Below, piece by piece: positions 1,765 to 5,233 of a DNA stretch of 64,000 nt. The notes under the pieces were generated by a model. That model was not told where the DNA came from. It saw nothing but the letters and a program-made list of their open reading frames with translations, and did no database searches. Both the position numbers and the translations under genes were made by a program. The stretch lies in contig JAKQEE010000052.1 in NCBI GenBank assembly GCA_029558635.1, forward strand, positions 62,001 through 126,000. The letters are read 5' to 3'. The first letter of the stretch is position 1; each line of letters begins with the position of its first letter. Source of the DNA: Pseudomonadota bacterium. Its GTDB lineage: Bacteria > Pseudomonadota > Alphaproteobacteria > Micavibrionales > Micavibrionaceae.

Positions 1765-2529
1765 TCAGAGCAAATCCAGCATTTTTGAATGAAGCGCAGG
1801 ATCGCCGCAGGCGAGAAGCGTTGGGTCGCCGTGCAGTGTTTTGGGGTGGCCTTGCCAGTCGGTGATTTTTCCGCCTGCGCCTTCGATAATCGGAACAAGG
1901 GCAATAAAATCATAGATGCCCAGTTGGTCTTCGACGATCACATCGATAAATCCGTTTGCCATCAATCCGTAGAAATAACAATCGCCTTGAAAGACCGGAT
2001 AACGTGTGGCCTGTTCGATACGGGTGAAACGGTTTTTGTCACTATCAGAGATTTGCGAGGGTGAGCCAGTGCCAAAGATCGCCTGTTTCAATTCGGGGCA
2101 GGGGCAGCAGGTGACAGGTTTACCGTTATAGAGTGTCGGTTGTCTTTGTTGTCCGACCCAGCGTTGGTTCAGGATGGGTTGGTCGATGATGCCGAGAATT
2201 GGAGTCTCATCCCGGCATAGGCCGATCAGTGTGCCGAAGGTCGGGCGGCCAATGGTGAATGATTTCGTACCGTCGATCGGGTCGATAACCCATGTCAGGC
2301 CGTTTTTGGTTTCTTTTGTCCCGAATTCTTCGCCCAAGATACCGTCGTCGGGGCGTTCCGTTTCGATGATGGTGCGCAGAGTTTTTTCTATTTCCTTATC
2401 GGCGCGAGTGACGGGTGTATCATCACTTTTGCATTCAATATCGAGCGGAGTGCCGAAATACTTGCGCGCAATCTCTCCGGCAGCGTCGGCGAGTTCAAGG
2501 GCAAAGGGGAGTATGGTGTTAGTCGTCAT
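1765..2529 (-). CDS. hisN: Inositol monophosphatase-family phosphatase, probable histidinol-phosphatase HisN
   Basis: 254-residue Mg-dependent phosphatase of the IMPase fold. Visible metal-site motifs are GILGEEFG (Glu), then WVIDPIDGTKSF, the family signature DPxDGTxxF, and near the C-terminus GAGGKITDWQG. In alphaproteobacteria and actinobacteria this subgroup is the histidinol-phosphatase of histidine biosynthesis, removing phosphate from L-histidinol phosphate. An inositol- or PAP-phosphatase role cannot be excluded from sequence alone. ATAGGAC lies just before the ATG. The gene follows the terminator of the upstream minus-strand gene, so it probably has its own promoter, and it ends convergently against slt with no gap. 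Confidence 0.8.
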   Translation of the reverse strand: MTTNTILPFALELADAAGEIARKYFGTPLDIECKSDDTPVTRADKEIEKTLRTIIETERPDDGILGEEFGTKETKNGLTWVIDPIDGTKSFTIGRPTFGTLIGLCRDETPILGIIDQPILNQRWVGQQRQPTLYNGKPVTCCPCPELKQAIFGTGSPSQISDSDKNRFTRIEQATRYPVFQGDCYFYGLMANGFIDVIVEDQLGIYDFIALVPIIEGAGGKITDWQGHPKTLHGDPTLLACGDPALHSKMLDLL

Positions 2530-2573
2530 GTCCTATTTATAGGAGAGGATGGTCCTGCTTGCTATGCAAAAAT

Positions 2574-2601
2574 AAAACGCCGGAATATTCCGGCGTTTTT
2601 T
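2574..2601 (-). terminator. Rho-independent terminator of the RelA/SpoT-like gene
   Basis: Perfect inverted repeat AACGCCGGAAT/ATTCCGGCGTT with flanking A and T runs. On the minus strand the hairpin is followed by TTTTATTTTT, just past the stop of the gene ending at 2604. It separates that gene from hisN. Confidence 0.85.
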
Positions 2602-2603
2602 GT

Positions 2604-3563
2604 TTAGTGAAGGTGAGGGGCTTCTTCGGCTCCGGTTTGGGGAAGTCGCCATTTCCCGATGTAGGATGCGTGCAGTTCTTTTTCACGTGCGTGGGTTTTA
2701 GAGTAATGATCCATTGCTTTTTTGTATTCCAGATCGGGATTAATATCGGAATCAAGCATGGTGTTGAAACCACCCCGTTTTGCAATGTCGTAATTCATAG
2801 CGCGTCTTAAGGACTCCAGTGCGGGTGCAAGAGTTGTACAAAGTCCGGCAAGAATGTTCATGTGGTTGGATAGCGCTCCGGCAGTTTTTCCGATTTTATG
2901 GGCGCTTGTTTTTAGGTGGCGTTCGAGATCGCGCACTTGTTTGGGGCCAGTGGCCATTTCCATTTCTTTGTGGCCGATCTGTACTTCAGCCAACATAGCC
3001 TCTTCACCGTTTTGAACCAGCCAGTGCATTTTCAAGGCGCGGTGACCACCCTCGGGACAAGGGCGACGAAACTGGTCTTTGTGTGCCTTCACCATAATTC
3101 CTGTTGGGGGATCATCGGCAAGAAGGGCGTTTCTTAAAATGGCAGCCTCTTGTGGGGTGCTGATCAAAATCTGGCACCGAATGTAGTCACAAATTCGCGC
3201 GGGGTTCTGATTAATGTTGTGGTCCAGAAGTTTGCGTTCAGAAGATTTTCTTCCTTTCAGGAAACGAATATCATCAGGGTTTGCTTCAAGCTCTTCAATC
3301 AGGGCGGGCAAGTCTTCGAGTCTGTATTCTCTTCCCTGGTCATCCTTCAGGCGTGCGGTGGGAACCAATAACAGAAGTTTTTCCGCATCCCGCAACATTT
3401 CGACACGAAGCCTGCGGCCCGAATCGCGGTATCCGTCCGTGGCTTTAATTGTTGGTTGTGTATCGGTATCCCAGTTCCATTCCCATGGAACACCCTCGGG
3501 TGGCGCCAGAGCAGCGCGGTCGAATTTGGCTGTCGTTTCGGAAATTTTCTTGGAGTTAGTCAC
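2604..3563 (-). CDS. RelA/SpoT-fold (nucleotidyltransferase-like) protein, function unknown
   Basis: 319 residues with no hydrophobic segment. The middle resembles the RelA/SpoT synthetase fold: ICDYIRCQILIS (about 124-135, matching the D-x-x-G-x-R strand), KAHKDQFRRPCPEGGHRALKMHWLV (159-183, matching the kDyi..pk.nGYrSlH segment, with His replacing Tyr) and LAEVQIGHKEME (191-202, matching the E-x-Q-I metal strand). Asp126, Arg129, Glu193 and Gln195 would be the key positions. No HD hydrolase, TGS or ACT domain is present, so it is not a long RSH enzyme. It could be a small alarmone synthetase, a toxin-type pyrophosphokinase, or an inactive relative. It is monocistronic, with its own promoter and terminator. 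The fold call is inference from motif spacing. Confidence 0.5.
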   Translation of the reverse strand: MTNSKKISETTAKFDRAALAPPEGVPWEWNWDTDTQPTIKATDGYRDSGRRLRVEMLRDAEKLLLLVPTARLKDDQGREYRLEDLPALIEELEANPDDIRFLKGRKSSERKLLDHNINQNPARICDYIRCQILISTPQEAAILRNALLADDPPTGIMVKAHKDQFRRPCPEGGHRALKMHWLVQNGEEAMLAEVQIGHKEMEMATGPKQVRDLERHLKTSAHKIGKTAGALSNHMNILAGLCTTLAPALESLRRAMNYDIAKRGGFNTMLDSDINPDLEYKKAMDHYSKTHAREKELHASYIGKWRLPQTGAEEAPHLH

Positions 3564-3609: not shown

Positions 3610-3639
3610 ATTGTACGCGTTGTTTCTTGAATTCGTCAA
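3610..3639 (-). promoter_or_regulatory. Sigma70-type promoter for the RelA/SpoT-like gene
   Basis: On the minus strand TTGACG, an 18-base spacer, then TACAAT, about 50 bases before the ATG at 3563. Both hexamers differ from consensus at one position. Confidence 0.5.
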
Positions 3640-3828: not shown

Positions 3829-4251
3829 ATGACCACGCAACGTACTTTTTCGATCATCAAACCCGATGCGACCCGTCGTAACCTGACCGGTGCTATCAAC
3901 GCCCGTTTTGAAGAAAACGGCTTGCGCATCGTCGCCCAGAAACGCATCCAGATGACCGAAACCCAAGCCAAGAAATTCTATGAAGTTCATGCGGCCCGTC
4001 CATTCTATAACGATCTGGTCAGCTTTATGATTTCCGGTCCGGTTGTCGTTCAGGTTCTGGAAGGCGAAAACGCCGTGGCCAAAAACCGCGAGATCATGGG
4101 GGCCACCAATCCTGCTGACGCTGCTGCCGGTACGATCCGCAAGGATTTCGCAGAGAGCATCGAAGCCAACTCGGTTCACGGGTCGGATAGCGCTGAAAAT
4201 GCCGCAATTGAGATTGCTTACTTCTTTAGTGGGACCGAAATCGTCGGCTAG
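3829..4251 (+). CDS. ndk: Nucleoside diphosphate kinase
   Basis: 140 residues, the normal length for the family. It transfers the gamma-phosphate from ATP to NDPs through a phosphohistidine intermediate. The start [18 protein letters not shown] is the canonical N-terminus, [17 protein letters not shown] is the Kpn-loop region, and [20 protein letters not shown] contains the catalytic His (NxxHGSDS). Cytoplasmic housekeeping enzyme. It has its own promoter and a strong terminator downstream, so it is monocistronic. Confidence 0.98.
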
Positions 4252-4723: not shown

Positions 4724-5233
4724 TCAGGTGATGATGTTTTGCAGGTAGCTGCGGATATCGTAGCCTTTGAAATCCATTGCGCCTGTGCGGATTTCCATCC
4801 CACGTGATGCCATGTTCGAGAGTGCGTCCGCCAAGGGCATGAACTCTCTGGTTCTTTTGCGGTGCTCGATGCCGGAAAAATGGCCGACAAGCGAGTCATT
4901 GTTGTTTTTGGCGGGGCGTGCGTTTCCGGAGTTTTCCTTCAGATGCCTTTTGACCAAATCTCCCACGACGCGGATACAATCGCTGAATAATATCACACTG
5001 GATTCTGAAAGTTCAATCTGACCCGTTTTGGGGAGGTGAGCGGCCAGATACCCTCCGAAGCGGACGGCCTCTTTCTCGGCATTCAGTGCGCGTCTGCCAT
5101 AGTCGCCGTCAAGGGACAGCGGACGGGAGTAAAGCTGGATCTTTGCCGCCTCTTCAAAATATATAACGCAGCCCAGTCCGGATGATCCATCCGGTTTCGC
5201 GCAGCCATCTGTGTAGAATAGAATTCTTCCCAT
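4724..5233 (-). CDS. Divergent RNase H-like fold protein
   Basis: 169 residues. The N-terminus LFYTDGCAKPDGSSGLGCVIYF matches the first RNase HI strand pair with Asp9. NAEKEAVRFG provides Glu53, VILFSDCIRVV provides Asp85, and MPLADALSNMA provides Asp136. This is the DEDD set in the expected order and spacing. The region between strands 4 and 5 is longer and more charged than in classical RNase HI, and the usual basic handle is not recognisable. It may degrade RNA in RNA-DNA hybrids or act on another nucleic acid; a separate canonical rnhA could exist elsewhere. It ends 6 bases from the convergent upstream ORF. Confidence 0.55.
   Translation of the reverse strand: MGRILFYTDGCAKPDGSSGLGCVIYFEEAAKIQLYSRPLSLDGDYGRRALNAEKEAVRFGGYLAAHLPKTGQIELSESSVILFSDCIRVVGDLVKRHLKENSGNARPAKNNNDSLVGHFSGIEHRKRTREFMPLADALSNMASRGMEIRTGAMDFKGYDIRSYLQNIIT

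Follow-up and report, generated by a model that had tools for sequence, protein, structure and literature searches.

The window, i.e., the whole 64,000-nucleotide stretch of Micavibrionaceae DNA analyzed here, contains an open reading frame (ORF) for a predicted RSH protein consisting of a SYNTH domain only, which is divergent from ndk and is followed by a hisN-like gene (Table 1). The ORF called in the first-pass annotation was confirmed, as were the residues listed there, i.e., D126 and R129 in ICDYIRCQI, G172-G173-H174-R175, and E193-V-Q195. With a promoter-like site of its own and a terminator-like hairpin, the RSH gene is a predicted single-gene unit in the window. The hisN-like gene occupies the position of alaS in most relatives. 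While the RSH gene is followed directly by hisN in the window (1765-3563), several relatives have alaS between the two, and alaS has, therefore, presumably been moved or lost in the window genome.

By inspection, we found no signal peptide, transmembrane segment, or delivery domain in the RSH protein of the window (from here on, the window protein). An ordinary long RSH is also encoded in the window genome on a different contig (727-aa ORF; PF04607, 149.9 bits). At 3.65 Mb, the assembly of this genome (G000; 439 contigs, 5.9% contamination) exceeds the ~2 Mb of relatives and may be mixed. A 169-aa ORF on the minus strand of the window (4724-5233) had a sub-threshold RNase H match (13.5 bits versus a cut-off of 25.8) and may encode a divergent RNase H-like protein.

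TABLE 1 Features of the RSH locus in the window and residues of the window protein
Feature	Position	Strand	Basis or remark
Predicted RSH SYNTH-only protein	2604..3563	-	GTG start, 319 aa; family profile versus PDB RSH enzymes and AlphaFold/Foldseek
Sigma70-like promoter, TTGACG-18-TACAAT	3610..3639	-	Upstream of RSH gene; consensus match only
Intrinsic terminator-like hairpin	2574..2599	-	11 pairs and T tail; directly 3' of RSH gene
ndk, nucleoside diphosphate kinase	3829..4251	+	Divergent neighbor and slot marker; PF00334, 1e-56
hisN-like inositol-monophosphatase family gene	1765..2529	-	PF00459, 2.4e-50; TIGR02067, 1.7e-80, 270.1 bits, just under cut-off
K103, RelP Lys80 equivalent (ATP phosphates)	3255..3257	-	Invariant, 53/53
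K111, RelP Lys88 equivalent (ATP phosphates)	3231..3233	-	Invariant, 53/53
D126, RelP Asp107 equivalent (Mg2+)	3186..3188	-	Invariant, 53/53
E193, RelP Glu174 equivalent (Mg2+)	2985..2987	-	Invariant, 54/54
R129 at D+3, Apk/Tas1-like syn2 motif	3177..3179	-	R in 43/53, G in 8, A in 2; Tas1 KDLAR alignment
G-loop G173-H174-R175, His at RelP Tyr151 acceptor-base position	3039..3047	-	Family counts at the His174 position (see text)

Family and fold of the window protein

Searched alone, the window protein had no Pfam or NCBIfam domain even at E = 1, and a phmmer search of the PDB with it as the single query returned nothing. HD, TGS, and ACT domains were absent in the Pfam and NCBIfam searches, and the protein does not have the makeup of a long RSH (Rel/RelA/SpoT). 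PF04607, the profile named in the first-pass annotation, scored 13.0 bits with the window protein in a search of the window genome (E = 0.285; cut-off, 27 bits) and 15.4 bits with its ortholog in G002, but matched 14 of 53 syntenic relatives (best E-value, 4.4e-9). Neither of the relatives L110 and L104, used singly as phmmer queries against the PDB, had a significant match, and family membership, therefore, needs a family profile. While a profile of 3 orthologs had no RSH match in the PDB, a 14-member profile with the window protein as its first sequence matched Staphylococcus aureus RelP (4.7e-11) and Tas1 (4.5e-8). A 53-member profile matched YwaC (1.5e-15), followed by RelP, RelQ, Tas1, RelSeq, SaEAS, and CapRel, as well as FaRel2 weakly; counts based on the family profile are partly circular. 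All 53 ORFs formed one cluster by single-linkage phmmer (E<1e-4, within the 53-sequence set).

An AlphaFold model based on a 14-row alignment had a mean pLDDT of 81, with values of 85 to 98 over most of the core. In Foldseek, the top 33 PDB matches of this model were all RSH synthetases (CapRel, 1.7e-4); their TM-scores were modest (mostly 0.4 to 0.5 by target length), and details of the geometry call for caution. For the window sequence by itself, the RSH assignment is weak; it appears to be more than chance once the relatives are included. Based on homology at the level of the family profile and on the modeled fold, the window protein is a predicted member of the RSH synthetase superfamily (SYNTH domain). 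The description in the first-pass annotation of a lone RelA/SpoT fold without hydrolase or regulatory domains is, thus, supported, and the combination of a different fold and no relation to PF04607 was not what we observed.

Outside the family, single-sequence searches of Pfam, NCBIfam, PADLOC, PDB, phages, plasmids, and viral and genome contigs identified no close relatives, and PHROGs gave chance-level matches only. Profiles of the window type and of the partner domain p2 (see below) had no match outside the window genome among 399 genomes from across the phylum. In PADLOC, PDC-S33 was matched by 5 of the 53 relatives (best, 6.7e-7), while the window protein had no match. We found no literature linking Micavibrio with alarmones.

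The slot next to ndk and its alleles

Within the genus, only two further genomes had an ortholog of the window protein (47 to 49% identity). With the profile of the three orthologs, eight additional genomes of the family yielded weaker relatives, several of which are ~20% identical yet map to the same address, i.e., between ndk and alaS. For a census, we pulled the ndk locus of ~97 genomes and inspected the ndk-alaS gap. Both genes were in view at 61 loci, of which 46 had an RSH-like ORF, 9 were empty (77 to 451 bp), and 6 had other content; at 7 more loci, including the window, an RSH gene adjoins ndk with no alaS in view. The RSH gene in the slot is divergent from ndk, and its start is usually ~100 to 290 bp away. 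No such gene was found at 31 ndk loci from other families of the order; in these families, the gap is usually 82 to 272 bp where alaS adjoins ndk. Slot members are often <20% identical to each other. These comparisons support that the slot next to ndk is fixed in the Micavibrionaceae and that it holds divergent, putative SYNTH proteins. This conserved slot with its swapped alleles is the main point, and the first-pass annotation missed it.

The ndk proteins of G002 and G005 are identical, the C-terminal parts of their alaS proteins are 99% identical, and the flanking DNA on the two sides shows identities of 96.3% (3205 bp) and 95.0% (2135 bp). Between these flanks, exactly over the RSH gene, we found no similarity. 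The similarity breaks off immediately beyond the stop codon, following a terminator that both genomes share, and immediately beyond the start codon; the two RSH proteins are of different classes. Within genus g1, there are at least four allele classes. Genus labels need 20 changes on the alaS tree, which is the minimum, and 25 on the RSH tree, on which the non-monophyly of g35, g28, g1, and g5 is forced by starred branches. Within allele classes, dN/dS is 0.02 to 0.24, with values near those of alaS in several pairs and a few-fold above them in others; based on these values, the proteins are likely functional and constrained. The diversity between classes is probably mostly due to whole-gene replacement. 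Fast point evolution was considered as the main cause and rejected, since proteins of one class change at a rate similar to, or a few-fold above, that of alaS, and the step from class to class represents replacement.

Active-site residues and the partner domain p2

Residues were compared by alignment to the family HMM, and the equivalences with RelP were taken from the profile alignment to RelP and from PMC5794853. Only four positions are invariant, i.e., K103, K111, D126, and E193, while the next best columns reach 87% and the median column majority is 26%, with the caveat that an alignment of this type can flatter conserved residues. The corresponding residues in RelP, Lys80, Lys88, Asp107, and Glu174, hold the ATP phosphates and Mg2+ (PMC5794853); the window protein, thus, has both the Lys pair for the ATP phosphates and the Asp/Glu pair for Mg2+. 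That the catalytic quartet is fixed on so divergent a background speaks for a functional ATP pyrophosphokinase whose acceptor sites have been re-tuned.

At the position of the G-loop Tyr, the window protein has His174, as noted in the first-pass annotation, and this His is kept in both close orthologs. Among 54 relatives, the position is occupied by Y (21), F (13), L (9), H (3), M (3), and others. The replacement of Tyr lowers the claim of a (p)ppGpp synthetase and leaves that of a SYNTH fold untouched; the altered base specificity proposed in the first-pass annotation is plausible at such a variable position. Arg is present at position 175 in 28/54, with R175A in both window orthologs, and position 195 is Gln in 36/54 and Lys in 11/54; some classes lack R129 or Q195. 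The motifs of the RSH synthetase core are present, with the correction that the Arg of the DxxR motif is at D+3, as in Tas1/Apk, and not at D+5. The syn2 motif of Apk is RYT, with the Arg at D+3 like R129 (PMC12226406). From the (p)ppApp signature of Apk/Tas1, the window protein has this Arg in syn2, while GxN in syn3 is replaced by A-L-K; one member (L066) has the guanosine-type SxH in syn3. Arg78 and Arg112 of RelP, which stack the donor adenine (PMC5794853), have no equivalents in the window protein (F101 and Q131). The positions predicted to contact the acceptor or the adenine vary among the alleles.

Many alleles are followed by one to two small genes before alaS. Among their products, p2 (roughly 85 aa) forms a coherent family with matches to the C-terminal part of class-4 RSHs, which are fusions (hhalign E-value, 1.1e-5; probability, 82%), as well as to the 115-aa partner of class 5 (1.1e-9). 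A family-wide search identified 16 p2 matches in 14 genomes, all of which are beside an RSH gene in the ndk slot or elsewhere. p2 had no Pfam match and no PDB fold match, and it did not match the pseudo-zinc-finger antitoxin. A second small partner family, p1 (~120 to 176 aa), lies between the RSH gene and p2 at L109, L110, L097, and L101 and had no Pfam family above the cut-off.

In G011 (L005:393-2742), p2 is the C terminus of an HD_4 hydrolase, and the hydrolase gene immediately precedes that of a 489-aa RSH containing a Gly-zipper region, an arrangement resembling that of a synthetase toxin and a hydrolase antitoxin. A 489-aa RSH-like protein with a Gly-zipper region is also encoded at L013:1330-2799 (G134), which, like L005, is outside the ndk slot. 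On contig C113 of G037 (L151:1397-4696), we found the order RSH fragment, p2, RSH fragment, p2, and a full 580-aa RSH with a Gly-rich region, and this tandem p2 array adjoins a ParA-like gene. Alternating fragments and small genes are typical of toxin cassettes with immunity genes, and the G037 array looks like orphan toxin cassettes of this type.

From these comparisons, many alleles are predicted to have a small RSH-associated partner domain that occurs as a separate protein, in fused form, or joined to an HD hydrolase, and p2 appears to be a previously undescribed domain of this kind. We found neither a p2 gene in the window genome nor a p2-like C terminus fused to the window protein, and the orthologs likewise lack a partner. 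The adjacent or fused antitoxin expected for a toxSAS is, thus, seen in relatives and not in the window, and a toxin-antitoxin reading rests on these relatives. Accordingly, the suggestion of a toxin-like protein made in the first-pass annotation is supported for the family by the partner genes and fusions, while for the partnerless window allele it is an extrapolation.

Interpretation and comparison with known systems

We suggest, with about an even chance of being right, that the window protein is catalytically active, serving as the pyrophosphokinase in a toxSAS-like module for conflict or growth arrest, and represents one allele of a multi-allelic ndk-alaS locus. As a single-domain, SYNTH-only, ATP-dependent 3'-pyrophosphokinase, it would transfer pyrophosphate from ATP to a 3'-OH acceptor, i.e., a nucleotide or a tRNA 3' end, which would differ between alleles. 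Acceptors known for toxSASs are tRNA CCA ends or adenine nucleotides (PMC11782079, PMC11559606). The modules may function as conditional growth-arrest or conflict effectors, possibly against phages, a use known for CapRel (PMC9712102). That wildly different versions are swapped whole in one slot suggests a role in conflict or defense rather than routine housekeeping, and an arms race may keep the allele diversity. The window allele would be a solo version lacking the partner domain; it would have to be restrained in some other way, e.g., by low expression, substrate-limited activity, an outside trigger, or low toxicity.

The protein might instead be an ordinary regulatory small alarmone synthetase that makes (p)ppGpp or (p)ppApp for stress or life cycle control, with alleles arising by drift and recombination and the slot being an old insertion site. 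The missing partner gene in the window, purifying selection like that on alaS in some pairs, the long RSH of the window genome, which could degrade the product, and the SxH signature kept in L066 are all in agreement with this possibility. It is, however, rather unlikely, because whole-gene replacement between near-identical genomes is not expected for a housekeeping enzyme, most members have lost the G-loop Tyr, the slot is empty at nine loci, and p2 is found joined to a hydrolase or alternating with pieces of RSHs. The RSH fold could also have lost catalysis and been co-opted to sense or bind nucleotides; this reading, which would correspond to the inactive relative considered in the first-pass annotation, could account for His174, R175A in both orthologs, the missing Arg residues for the donor adenine, and the loss of R129 or Q195 in some classes. 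We nevertheless regard it as quite improbable because both phosphate-binding Lys residues and both Mg2+ ligands are invariant in 53 to 54 proteins that have hardly anything else in common, and dN/dS is 0.02 to 0.24.

Epibiotic predators belong to the host family, some alarmone synthetases are known to be exported (PMC12691689), and the sister RSH proteins outside the slot (L005, L013, and L151) carry Gly-zipper C-terminal regions, all of which would fit a secreted effector against prey or competitors. Yet, the ndk-slot members lack the Gly-zipper part and the window protein has none of the export features sought by inspection, making this explanation very doubtful. Finally, it is hardly credible that the gap between ndk and alaS serves as a hot spot for insertions in general and captured the RSH fold repeatedly by coincidence: the 15 intervals without an RSH gene (6 with other content and 9 empty, of 61) could be read in this way, but the other 46 share the fold, the orientation, and a similar distance to ndk, and all RSH ORFs in the slot are linked by phmmer at E<1e-4.

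Returning to the pyrophosphokinase module, we propose more tentatively, and with less than an even chance, that a single slot beside ndk, with a promoter and a terminator, accommodates interchangeable pyrophosphokinases, which have only the ATP/Mg2+ machinery in common and differ in their acceptors, together with p2 as a new RSH-associated control domain that is separate, fused, attached to a hydrolase, or absent. If this is right, the alleles represent a natural series of enzymes in which the donor chemistry is fixed and the choice of acceptor has been re-tuned many times, offering a direct route to what sets the substrate specificity of RSH enzymes. It would also add a new protein family that partners with RSH enzymes and, in a bacterial family with obligate predators among its members, a locus at which alleles are swapped. 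What deserves to be kept from this analysis is the slot at ndk with its multiple alleles, along with the new partner domain of RSHs.

The window protein has features of several known systems. Like the RelP/RelQ small alarmone synthetases (PMC5794853), it has equivalents of Lys80, Ser84, Lys88, Asp107, and Glu174; in contrast to them, it has His instead of Tyr in the G-loop, lacks the equivalents of Arg78 and Arg112, and has longer N- and C-terminal parts. The Arg at D+3 also sets it apart from RelA and from RelP, in the latter of which this Arg is at D+5 (Arg112). With the exported alarmone synthetases (EAS; PMC12691689), it shares the SYNTH-only architecture, and SaEAS (8vx3) is among the profile and fold matches; unlike for these proteins, we saw no export signal. 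The Tas1/Apk toxins (PDB 6OX6; PMC12226406) have the same SYNTH fold and the Arg at D+3, Tas1 matches the 14-member profile (E = 4.5e-8), and their P-x-K...A..K...DY.G.....D..R signature is found in relatives of the window protein, which differs from them in lacking a secretion or MuF domain, the GxN of syn3 (AxK instead), and an adjacent immunity gene. CapRel and the toxSASs FaRel2 and PhRel2 (PMC9712102, PMC11782079) likewise have a lone or partnered SYNTH domain (Foldseek match to CapRel, 1.7e-4) and an antitoxin domain that can be split or fused. Here, by contrast, the window protein has no antitoxin domain and lacks R95 of FaRel2 (D+5), p2 does not match the pseudo-zinc-finger antitoxin, and the alleles are swapped in a fixed chromosomal slot.
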